Source of the DNA: Polystyrenella longa
GTDB taxonomy: Bacteria; Planctomycetota; Planctomycetia; Planctomycetales; Planctomycetaceae
Length of the DNA stretch: 64,000 nucleotides
Assembly (NCBI RefSeq): GCF_007750395.1
Contig: NZ_CP036281.1
Location: 781,211 to 845,210, forward strand
Direction of reading: 5' to 3'
Shown here: piece by piece, positions 23,175-26,868 of the stretch
How positions within the stretch are numbered: the stretch's first letter is position 1
Layout: the number at the start of each line of letters is the position of its first letter
Notes under the pieces: model-generated
Told to the model about the DNA's origin: nothing
The model's database searches: none
What the model saw: the letters and a program-made list of their open reading frames with translations, nothing else
Made by a program: the position numbers and the translations under genes

Positions 23175-23241
23175 GTAGCAGGGTGATGCGGAGGAACCGG
23201 TGGCGGGTTTGCGGGAATTGAATTTCAGGTGTGGCGTCATT

Positions 23242-23982
23242 ATGGCAGAGTGGTTTGTCAAACGAGATGAGCGAATTGTCGGTCCGCTCTCCACGGAAAA
23301 ACTGAAATCGTACGCGGAAAAAGGGAAGCTGCGACCCGAAGATTTAATTGGCAAGTCGAAACGAGGGCCATTCCGCGAGGCTGGTCGGTTGAAGGCGCTG
23401 TTTCCTGAAGAGATCGATTCAGATGACTTTGAGAACGAAGAACAAGACTTTGGGTTTCCAGCCCTGAAAAATATCGACGTCAATGCGGGAGAGCGGGTTT
23501 TCGAGTCTTATGGGGCAGAACGCGCGTTTGACGAGAATGTTTACGATGACGATGACGACGATTATTACCGTTCCGGACGACGTCGTCGTCCGCGTGGGTC
23601 ACGCCAGAAAAATGTCGATTCGACGATAAACGCTGCCGCCACGATGTTAATCGTATACAGCTTCTGTGGTGTGCTCTTGATGATCGTGAATCTGGCTATG
23701 TTATTGATGGGGAAAGAGGCTGCTAATCCCTTCGGGGAAATGAACGAAGTTGTCGTTCCTGACTGGGTATATATAGCTCAGGGGTTTTCCGGACTGATTC
23801 TCGCTGGCATTTCCATTTTGGCGGGCGTCTGCATGAAGCAGCGAAGAGGGTGGGGATTTGTCGTCACCATGGCGGTCGTTAATATGCTTCCACTAATTAA
23901 TTGCTGTTGTATGACCGGAATTCCGGTTGGCATGTGGGTGCTGATTGTGATGCTCATGGGAGATGTAAAGAAGGAGTTTTGA
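23242..23982 (+). CDS. GYF_2-domain multi-pass membrane protein
   Basis: 246 residues. The GYF_2 domain begins at the start (AEWFVKRDERIVGPLSTEKL) and spans about 50 residues. A linker with a run of Asp (YDDDDDDYY) and an Arg cluster follows, then four hydrophobic segments (AATMLIVYSFCGVLLMIVNL; QGFSGLILAGISILAGVC; GFVVTMAVVNMLPLINC; GMWVLIVMLMG). Function unknown; the domain suggests binding of a proline-rich partner. An earlier GTG at 23200 has a strong GGAGG five bases upstream and would add 14 residues, so the start is open. It lies 285 nt before the GspE-like gene on the same strand. Confidence 0.75.
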   Translation: MAEWFVKRDERIVGPLSTEKLKSYAEKGKLRPEDLIGKSKRGPFREAGRLKALFPEEIDSDDFENEEQDFGFPALKNIDVNAGERVFESYGAERAFDENVYDDDDDDYYRSGRRRRPRGSRQKNVDSTINAAATMLIVYSFCGVLLMIVNLAMLLMGKEAANPFGEMNEVVVPDWVYIAQGFSGLILAGISILAGVCMKQRRGWGFVVTMAVVNMLPLINCCCMTGIPVGMWVLIVMLMGDVKKEF

Positions 23983-24267: not shown

Positions 24268-26067
24268 ATGAAATCTTTGGTACCTCACATTAAGCTGAAA
24301 TCAGGGTCAATAAGTCTTTATGCGGGGGTGATTACCTTGCTTGGTTGGTTTCTTTCGGGGACCGTTCAAGCTCAGGGTTCGTCTGCATTATTGCCACTTC
24401 CGGCTAATCCGGAATCATTTCAGCGCGGAAACGGTTACGATGAAGTAGGAAGTTACCTCAGCCTCTTTTGCATTATTCTAATCCTCGGATTCTTCCTTGC
24501 ATGGGTGGGAAGCGTTAAGTGGGTCAGCAAAGACAGTGGTGCGCTGAAGGTGAACTACCCCAACTGGAATGGGATTTTGCTCGCCTGCTGTGCGATGGGT
24601 CTATTTTCGTTCCTGCTGATTCCCGTCCCGCTCCTCGGCTTTTTTGGGATGTTGCTCTTCTATGCTGTTCCGATGGGGATGTACGTCCACGAACGAAATG
24701 GACGTGTTCCGGCGAGTGCCCGTATATTAACACCGAACCATATGCGTAAACTGGCAAACCGATATGGGTCGAGGTTTGGAATTCGTTTTGGGAACAAGAC
24801 GACTTCCGAATCGGTCATGGGCCCTCCCATCCGCTTTGTCGGAAGTAGCGCCAACAATCGGGATGAAAATATTGCCCGCGCCCGCCAGGTGGAAAACTCT
24901 CGTGGATATCTGGCGGCGAAAGAACTGATCTATGACGCGATTCTTCGTCGCGCGACAGACGTGCATATGGAACCTAAATCGGACGAGATGTCGATTCGGC
25001 TACGTATCGACGGCGTGATGTATCCGAGCGAGCCGTTCGACACGGCGCAGGGACTCGCGTTAGTTAACATCTTCAAAGTTCTTTCGGCCATGGATATTAC
25101 GGAAAGACGTCGTGCACAGGACGGCAGTTTCAGCGCGGAACTGGAAGGTCGGCATATCGACTTTCGTGTGGCGACGCAGGGAACGCGCTACGGCGAAAAA
25201 ATGAGTCTGCGTATTCTGGACCAGTCAAACTCGGTTAATACACTGAAAGGACTTGGGTTCCGGAAGCAGCTTCTCGAACGGATCGAAGAGACCGTCACGT
25301 TGCCACACGGTTTGATGCTGGTCTGTGGTCCGACAGGTGCCGGTAAGTCGACCACGCTTTATGCCGCGCTCAATTCTATCGACCGCTTCCAGCAGAACAT
25401 CATCACGGTGGAAGACCCGATCGAGTACAAGATTGATAACGTCAACCAGATCGAAATCAATACGAAGTCGGGGCAGACGTTTGCGAATTCGCTTCGCTCG
25501 ATTCTACGACAGGACCCGGACGTCGTGATGATCGGTGAGATTCGCGACTCGGAGACAGGTGTCATTGCCTGTCAGGCGGCGAATACGGGGCACATGGTCT
25601 TTTCCTCGGTTCACGCCAACGACTCGATCACGGCACTTTATCGTATGATCGAACTGGGGGTCGAACCCTTTATGATCTCCAACTCGATCAGCGGAATTCT
25701 GGCTCAGCGACTGTTGCGCCGGTTATGCCCGGACTGTAAAAAACCTTATAAGCCCAAACCCGAAATATTAAAGAAGCTGGGTCTGCCACCAGAAAAAATT
25801 AATGCGTTTTACCGACCACCGAAACCGCAGTCGGAGGAGGAAATTTGTCCTCGCTGTGGTGGTCTTGGTTACTTCGGACGAATCGGCGTGTTCGAATTCC
25901 TGCCAATTAATGACCGCATCCGGGACCTCCTTAAGAATAAGTCCGGTATGTCGCAGATTAAAGCAGAGGCCCGTAAAAACGGAATGCTGTTGATGCGAGA
26001 GGAAGGACTACGGTTGGTCGTCCGGGGCGTAACTTCGATGGAAGAACTCGGCCGCGTCGTGAAATAG
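24268..26067 (+). CDS. GspE/PilB-type secretion ATPase fused to an N-terminal membrane domain
   Basis: 599 residues. Residues about 200-599 are a type II secretion/type IV pilus assembly ATPase core: DVHMEPKSDEMSIRLRIDGV, Walker A GPTGAGKST (from 354), Asp box VEDPIEY, Walker B-like VVMIGEIRD (about 420), His box GHMVFSSVHANDS, and a CPDC...CPRC zinc module (about 489 and 527). In place of the usual N1/N2 domains the first 150 residues hold a signal-like helix (YAGVITLLGWFLSGTVQAQG) and three or more membrane helices. So the motor would be membrane-tethered, which is not normal for GspE/PilB. No pilin, PilC or secretin genes are nearby. The next gene, 52 nt on, encodes a multi-pass membrane protein. 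Confidence 0.85.
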   Translation: MKSLVPHIKLKSGSISLYAGVITLLGWFLSGTVQAQGSSALLPLPANPESFQRGNGYDEVGSYLSLFCIILILGFFLAWVGSVKWVSKDSGALKVNYPNWNGILLACCAMGLFSFLLIPVPLLGFFGMLLFYAVPMGMYVHERNGRVPASARILTPNHMRKLANRYGSRFGIRFGNKTTSESVMGPPIRFVGSSANNRDENIARARQVENSRGYLAAKELIYDAILRRATDVHMEPKSDEMSIRLRIDGVMYPSEPFDTAQGLALVNIFKVLSAMDITERRRAQDGSFSAELEGRHIDFRVATQGTRYGEKMSLRILDQSNSVNTLKGLGFRKQLLERIEETVTLPHGLMLVCGPTGAGKSTTLYAALNSIDRFQQNIITVEDPIEYKIDNVNQIEINTKSGQTFANSLRSILRQDPDVVMIGEIRDSETGVIACQAANTGHMVFSSVHANDSITALYRMIELGVEPFMISNSISGILAQRLLRRLCPDCKKPYKPKPEILKKLGLPPEKINAFYRPPKPQSEEEICPRCGGLGYFGRIGVFEFLPINDRIRDLLKNKSGMSQIKAEARKNGMLLMREEGLRLVVRGVTSMEELGRVVK

Positions 26068-26118: not shown

Positions 26119-26868
26119 ATGATATTGAGCATTCTACTCTTGGTTATCCTCGCGGCTGTTGTCTGGTCTGTCGCCAGTGAAGGTCCTTGGGGAGCGACCA
26201 TCATGTTTTTCTCGGTCCTCTTTTCGGGATTGCTGGCGCTCAATTTCTTTGAGCCAGTGGCCGCCACTCTGGATAGCGTTTTTCCTGCTACCTGGGCCGT
26301 GCATCCCGACTTTTTCAGTCTGCTCGGTTTGTTCACTCTCTTTATTGTGCTGTTTCGCGTGGCGACTTTGTACCTGCTGCCCAGTTACGTCGAAGTTCAC
26401 CCCATGGTGTATGAAGGAGCCCGCTGGGTCTTTGCCGGGTTTACTGGTTACATGGCGATGGGGTTCATTCTGCTCAGCCTGCACACGGCTCCCATGCCTC
26501 GGGAGTTCATCGGGTTCAAACCTGAAAATAATAACTTCTTTGGGGTGACCGCCCCCGACCGGCAGTGGCTCGGGTTTATGCAGTACCTGTCGGAAAAGAA
26601 CTTCTCCCGGTTTGGTGAACCTCGCATTTTTGATGGACCTGTAAAAGCGGGCGTGATCGGTGTGGATAACACGATCTGGCCCTCGTTCCCGATTCGTTAT
26701 GCCTCGCGACGCGATGCTTATTCACGCAATCTGGGTGTGGAGTATGTCGACATGGGAGGCTCCGAGTCTGGCAGTGGTGGTTGGAACCAGGGTGACCAGA
26801 ATAAGTCCAACGACGACCCCGGCAATCTCCGTGGCCCGGGTGCCAGAAAAGGGGCTCCCGCGTTTTAA
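26119..26868 (+). CDS. CvpA-like multi-pass membrane protein with polar tail
   Basis: 249 residues. Four hydrophobic helices occur in the first 140 residues (ILSILLLVILAAVVWSVA; TIMFFSVLFSGLLALNFF; FFSLLGLFTLFIVLFRVATL; ARWVFAGFTGYMAMGFILL), in a layout like CvpA. Then comes a soluble part of 100 residues ending in a Gly/Asn-rich tail (GGSESGSGGWNQGDQNKSND). CvpA proteins affect colicin V export and envelope homeostasis, but the resemblance is weak and the assignment is tentative. It lies 52 nt after the ATPase gene and is probably co-transcribed with it, which hints at a membrane partner. Confidence 0.6.
   Translation: MILSILLLVILAAVVWSVASEGPWGATIMFFSVLFSGLLALNFFEPVAATLDSVFPATWAVHPDFFSLLGLFTLFIVLFRVATLYLLPSYVEVHPMVYEGARWVFAGFTGYMAMGFILLSLHTAPMPREFIGFKPENNNFFGVTAPDRQWLGFMQYLSEKNFSRFGEPRIFDGPVKAGVIGVDNTIWPSFPIRYASRRDAYSRNLGVEYVDMGGSESGSGGWNQGDQNKSNDDPGNLRGPGARKGAPAF

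Follow-up and report, generated by a model that had tools for sequence, protein, structure and literature searches.

A membrane-anchored GspE/PilB-family ATPase with PilT-like and CvpA-like partners in planctomycetes

Introduction

Pilus-type motors are described as ATPases of the cytoplasm, which a platform protein links to the membrane (PMC10191384, PMC6711533). Such motors may also come as pairs of related ATPases, as in the case of PilU, a second ATPase that depends on PilT (PMC6762196). We examined a 64,000-nucleotide stretch of the Polystyrenella longa genome (the window; NZ_CP036281.1, genome positions 781211-845210) for which an earlier note, made from the sequence alone, had described a secretion ATPase preceded by its own membrane domain.

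The gene that follows this ATPase leads to a second thread of the literature. To our knowledge, no ATPase partner of CvpA has been described, and the membrane part of the mycobacterial protein MarP is CvpA-like. MarP combines four membrane helices with a periplasmic domain that is a serine protease (PMC4992679), and enteric CvpA promotes bile-salt resistance (PMC6705877).

The planctomycete proteins resemble each of these systems in part. With PilB and GspE the anchored ATPase shares the N2 domain, the C-terminal ATPase core and a tetracysteine zinc motif, but it lacks N1 (MshEN), carries a predicted signal peptide and three predicted membrane helices, and has no adjoining platform, pilin or secretin gene. 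Together with a partner that scores as PilT it recalls the PilT-PilU pair (PMC6762196), except that the second member is here PilB-like and membrane-anchored, and that a third gene, CvpA-like, is present. The product of this third gene has the four membrane helices of CvpA and the topology proposed for it is that of MarP (PMC4992679), but it carries a conserved tail, and in those planctomycete tails that we tested we detected no protease domain. In the papers searched, a set that covers few subscription journals, we found neither the layout nor the module described; the publications listed on planctomycetes, type IV pili and PilT did not mention CvpA.

Results

Domain layout of the anchored protein

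The gene and its predicted parts are as follows (all on the + strand).

24268..26067, +: membrane-anchored GspE/PilB-family ATPase, 599 aa (open reading frame; Pfam T2SSE; full-length orthologues)
24268..24372, +: probable signal peptide, aa 1-35 (VQA|Q; hydrophobic helix 13-31, then an A-x-A-like site; the 'AQ' found here recurs among orthologues)
24457..24525, +: membrane helix 1 (TM1), about aa 64-86 (hydropathy 2.45; model helix 66-93, pLDDT about 90)
24556..24618, +: membrane helix 2 (TM2), aa 97-117 (hydropathy 2.37; model helix 97-117)
24628..24693, +: membrane helix 3 (TM3), about aa 121-142, then a basic stretch (hydropathy 1.79, charge count; model helix 121-146)
24694..24894, +: conserved linker, aa 143-209 (ERNxxVP...TPxH motif), without MshEN/N1 (alignment; Pfam, hhalign)
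24895..25242, +: N2 domain, about aa 210-325 (structural alignment to PilB/GspE from residue 210-211)
25243..26064, +: C-terminal ATPase domain (motif table; PilB/GspE structures)

The ATPase core proposed in the earlier note is confirmed by a Pfam T2SSE (PF00437) match of 372.9 bits, against a cut-off of 24.9, over aa 218-594. The closest solved relatives by sequence are PilF, PilB and GspE, with matches starting at aa 211-217, and solved PilB cores align to the model from residue 210-211 onwards (Z 46.9 to Geobacter metallireducens PilB, rmsd 1.9 Å, 378 residues). The motif table shows that the window protein keeps all catalytic motifs, namely Walker A (GPTGAGKST, aa 354-362), the Asp box (382-387), Walker B (GEIRD) and the His box, as well as both CxxC zinc motifs, CPDC at 487-490 and CPRC at 527-530 (C487/C490/C527/C530). 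It stays under the NCBIfam cut-offs for GspE (TIGR02533, 436.3 vs 630.25) and PilB (TIGR02538, 415.6 vs 675.65).

The signal-like helix and at least three membrane helices that had been read from the sequence are borne out by the model. Hydropathy maxima at aa 15, 65, 102 and 122 (19-residue mean 1.6-2.45) coincide with AlphaFold2 helices 13-31, 66-93, 97-117 and 121-146, the last three with a pLDDT of roughly 82-94, in a model built from a 34-sequence alignment (mean pLDDT 85). The N-terminal membrane region has no consistent Pfam match, and among the 11 T2SSE matches in the window genome N-terminal membrane segments occur in the window protein only. Together, sequence and model support a protein that sits in the membrane by its own helices. 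On average, the loop between TM1 and TM2 is neutral and gives no topology signal. After TM3 the net charge is +6 over aa 141-170 in the window protein (+3.8 on average), and this basic stretch implies that the ATPase part and the C-terminus would lie on the cytoplasmic side.

The helices had been said to stand in the place of both N1 and N2, and this holds for N1 alone. MshEN, which Pfam detects in four T2SSE paralogues of the window genome, was not found by Pfam in the window protein. The earlier note had named the 150-200 region as the place where an N1/N2 domain would speak against its reading; profile comparison (hhalign) of aa 44-217 with the N1 of the genome's own paralogues found no hidden MshEN (probability 0.2%). 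The alignment to solved structures from residue 210-211 on indicates that N2 is retained, so that the anchor is predicted to replace N1 (MshEN) only.

The window holds no match to T2SSF, secretin or N-methyl pilin profiles, in agreement with the earlier note that no pilin, platform or secretin gene lies nearby. Taken alone this is a weak argument, since these genomes do not keep related genes together: genes of type 4 filaments (platform, pilin, secretin) occur elsewhere in the window genome, and even the PilT-like partner described below lies at a distance here.

Distribution of the layout

Full-length orthologues of the anchored protein were found in 112 of 150 Planctomycetaceae genomes, among them named genomes of Gimesia, Schlesneria, Planctomicrobium and others; orthologues were called at 427 bits or more, and paralogues reach about 353 at most. 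A profile of aa 44-217 (A1) detects the layout in 70/392 genomes across Planctomycetota, and in every locus checked it matches the head of a T2SSE open reading frame. In several distant classes the signal peptide is absent and the protein starts at TM1. The comparison of domain layouts thus reveals an arrangement that recurs across the phylum, in many families besides Planctomycetaceae, and is not a one-off; its occurrence points to an old layout in Planctomycetota, and the shared N-terminal profile argues against chance.

These data also bear on the trivial explanation that a wrong start codon, or a membrane gene joined by chance to an ordinary GspE, created the anchored protein. The poor conservation of the signal-peptide region (23% mean identity over aa 1-43) would fit such an artefact. 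But over TM1-TM3 and the linker the mean pairwise identity of family orthologues is 36-59%, and these conserved parts stand in an open frame with T2SSE across the phylum. We reject an artefact on the grounds of this conservation and consider it extremely improbable.

Conserved partners of the anchored gene

In all 20 phylum-level loci (L072-L091), which come from other classes of the phylum, a PilT-like ATPase, the anchored GspE-like protein and a CvpA-like protein are encoded in this order on one strand, with the PilT-like gene directly before the anchored one; ten of the CvpA-like proteins in these loci were outside the set used to build the profile. Spacing is very tight in loci L228 and L229, with gaps between open reading frames of 48 and 3 bases in the former and of 33 and 21 bases in the latter. 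A conserved, apparently undescribed three-gene unit across planctomycetes is therefore well supported at the level of gene order and sequence. In the window genome (G000, contig C1) the partners are placed as follows.

26119..26868, +: membrane protein of CvpA type, 249 aa, with four membrane helices at the N-terminus followed by a soluble tail (conserved neighbour; Colicin_V in orthologues; model)
G000:C1:1218389-1219537: PilT-like partner, adjoining hisF, away from the anchored gene

The PilT-like partner exceeds the cut-off of the PilT family (TIGR01420, 389.6 vs 319.1 bits), and in our tree it forms a clade next to the canonical PilT of the window genome, which is separately present in the pilus cluster (L008). 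A hisF-like gene neighbours the PilT-like gene in many relatives too. In genomes G042, G047 and G029 (loci L223, L224 and L225) the PilT-like gene remains beside hisF without the anchored and CvpA-like genes; since it persists without the other two, it must have a role of its own as well.

The model of the downstream protein places its membrane helices at residues 2-19, 23-54, 63-86 and 95-123. Colicin_V (PF02674) matches 20 of 21 orthologues at E values up to 1 (best 1.2e-7); the window copy is far below the cut-off (10.4 bits vs 29.3; E 0.67), and the distant proteins of L083, L086 and L072 exceed it. The fold matches no solved structure at E<=0.001, with the tail modelled at low confidence, and so gives no clue to function. 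The tail is conserved and, by analogy with MarP (PMC4992679), probably periplasmic; its length in other classes can run to several hundred residues. In L083, L086, L087 and L090 the several hundred residues of the tail have no Pfam match of any kind. By eye, the gene after the CvpA-like gene resembles murD in L086 and L090. Viral contigs, scanned for relatives of the CvpA-like protein, yielded no match.

The anchored and CvpA-like genes are present or missing together. We compared the ortholog lists of the two genes in the 119 Planctomycetaceae genomes of good quality (at least 90% complete, at most 5% contaminated): 94 have both genes, 25 have neither, and none has just one, counts to be read with the caveat that the genes are usually adjacent, that an assembly gap may drop both, and that related genomes are not independent. 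The genomes that hold just one of the pair (G090, G114, G115 and G123) are 59-82% complete and thus fall outside the 119. G004 keeps both genes though they are distant (3.96 and 5.06 Mb on one contig), and the complete genome G042 has neither. In an independent search of named genomes with the CvpA-like protein, the anchored ATPase adjoined the match at 76 of 80 loci; in the other four the match starts 1-191 bases from the edge of the locus.

Motif decay

ATPase motifs are lost in 14 of 34 aligned anchored proteins, all among the 17 from outside Planctomycetaceae (14/17). The Walker A Lys, Walker B Glu and Asp box are kept in 17/17 proteins of the family and in those of L078, L084 and L091; as an example of decay, Walker A GPTGAGKST has become ARPEGGLST. 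The tetracysteine zinc positions are kept in all 34 proteins, with one motif shortened in L076. The PilT-like partner keeps its four motifs at 27/27 loci, the His box with minor substitutions. On the tree the decay needs two state changes, and a single change in 36% of bootstrap trees.

From the decay in the anchored protein, set against the intact motifs of its partner, it follows that parts of the phylum can do without hydrolysis by the anchored protein. The anchor, the zinc domain and the partners, in contrast, are not dispensable, and this combination is our strongest argument for a structural basic job. We therefore argue that the basic job of the anchored protein would be structural; hydrolysis would be an ancestral trait that some branches, that of the window among them, have retained.

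The window genome also encodes a second GspE-like protein of 449 aa (L055:6125-7474; G000:C1, about 1992124-1993473). It has lost the Walker A lysine (GPPGSGVTRT), has neither zinc cysteines nor membrane helices, and branches, on a long branch, among the motif-decayed anchored proteins.

The platform question and other neighbours

An orphan platform gene is found far from the window.

L052:9317-10366 (G000:C1:3043316-3044362; 3.04 Mb): orphan GspF/PilC-type platform gene, no adjoining ATPase

This gene lies just upstream of an apparent tgt-yajC-secD. Its orthologues occur in nearly all 150 family genomes, including those without the anchored protein, so we rejected it as a dedicated general partner. 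In the small module-carrying genomes G271, G369, G442 and G501, each T2SSF protein listed adjoins another GspE/PilB. Both distributions make a dedicated platform unlikely as a general rule. Ordinary GspE/GspF pairs are also present in 20/20 module-carrying genomes checked. A single opposite case was seen in G041 (L227, G041:C162), where the orphan GspF-like gene and the anchored gene are divergent neighbours.

Upstream of the anchored gene in the window, a gene at 23200-23982 (+) encodes an N-terminal GYF_2-like domain (24.9 bits vs a cut-off of 25.8), with hydrophobic segments discernible by eye. It was not seen adjoining the anchored gene in the other genomes read, and we left it out of the module because it is not conserved as a neighbour.

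Discussion

The fold and catalytic core of the anchored protein look like those of an ordinary PilB/GspE; its predicted anchor, its company and its pattern of decay do not. Sequence shows four things: the domain layout, the conserved order of the genes, the co-occurrence of the anchored and CvpA-like genes, and the decay of the anchored protein's motifs in several classes where those of the PilT-type partner are kept. The reading we favour, at a probability of about 0.5, is that three proteins form a module of the inner membrane, in which the anchored protein is a membrane-fixed subunit of PilB/GspE type beside a PilT-type ATPase and a CvpA-type protein. As to how the module works, and whether it serves ordinary pili, we can only infer.

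In the mechanism we propose, the anchored protein would form or cap a ring, fixed to the membrane by the protein's own helices where PilB and GspE dock through their N1 domain, and this ring would receive a cytoplasmic PilT-type ring. Where the anchored ring is intact, as in the window protein, both rings would supply ATP-driven movement, and elsewhere PilT alone; the movement would pass through the anchor and CvpA to a target in the membrane or periplasm. The contact between rings, the contact with CvpA and the movement are inferred steps. A more specific proposal, which we advance tentatively, is that of a platform-free machine, with a PilT-type ring on a membrane-fixed PilB-type ring and CvpA as the transducer, that would serve an envelope process other than pili and represent a separate lineage derived from pilus motors in planctomycetes.

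The main rival is that the anchored and PilT-like proteins are accessories of an ordinary machine for type IV pili or type II secretion, docking on a shared PilC/GspF and tuning extension or retraction, with CvpA helping in the envelope. The partner is indeed a true member of the PilT family, the published PilU offers a precedent (PMC6762196), the ordinary GspE/GspF pairs would provide the platform, and in G041 an orphan GspF-like gene even adjoins the anchored gene. But the pilus cluster of the window genome encodes a canonical PilT of its own, the orphan GspF-like gene also occurs in genomes that lack the anchored protein, and in the loci read the constant neighbours of the anchored gene are CvpA-like and PilT-like rather than pilin genes. 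Coupling of the PilC type would also leave CvpA without a role, and we consider this explanation unlikely on balance.

Alternatively, the anchored protein may be no motor at all but a scaffold or sensor, whose ATPase fold presents a zinc-domain surface that keeps the PilT-like ATPase at the membrane and regulates it, any remaining ATP binding acting as a switch. The 14 proteins that lost their motifs in one or two events on the tree while keeping the zinc cysteines fit this, and the soluble pseudo-GspE of the window genome (L055) offers a parallel. Against it, every catalytic motif is kept in 17/17 Planctomycetaceae proteins and in L078, L084 and L091; conservation throughout the family points to selection for hydrolysis there, which makes a general non-motor role improbable. 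The earlier note had itself proposed either a motor built into the membrane or a different job for the fold. The membrane part of the first proposal stands on sequence and model, but a motor alone is doubtful as the general role, given that motifs have decayed in 14 of the 17 aligned proteins from outside the family and that the PilT and CvpA partners are constant. The same motif decay outside the family and the same constant PilT-family and CvpA-type partners give the second proposal its real support.

Planctomycetes have an unusual envelope biology. A membrane-anchored relative of PilB and GspE with PilT and CvpA partners would be a natural test of how a ring couples to the membrane, and under the module reading the poorly understood CvpA family would gain an energised partner. 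Cultured genera such as Gimesia carry the anchored and CvpA-like pair, which makes these predictions testable.
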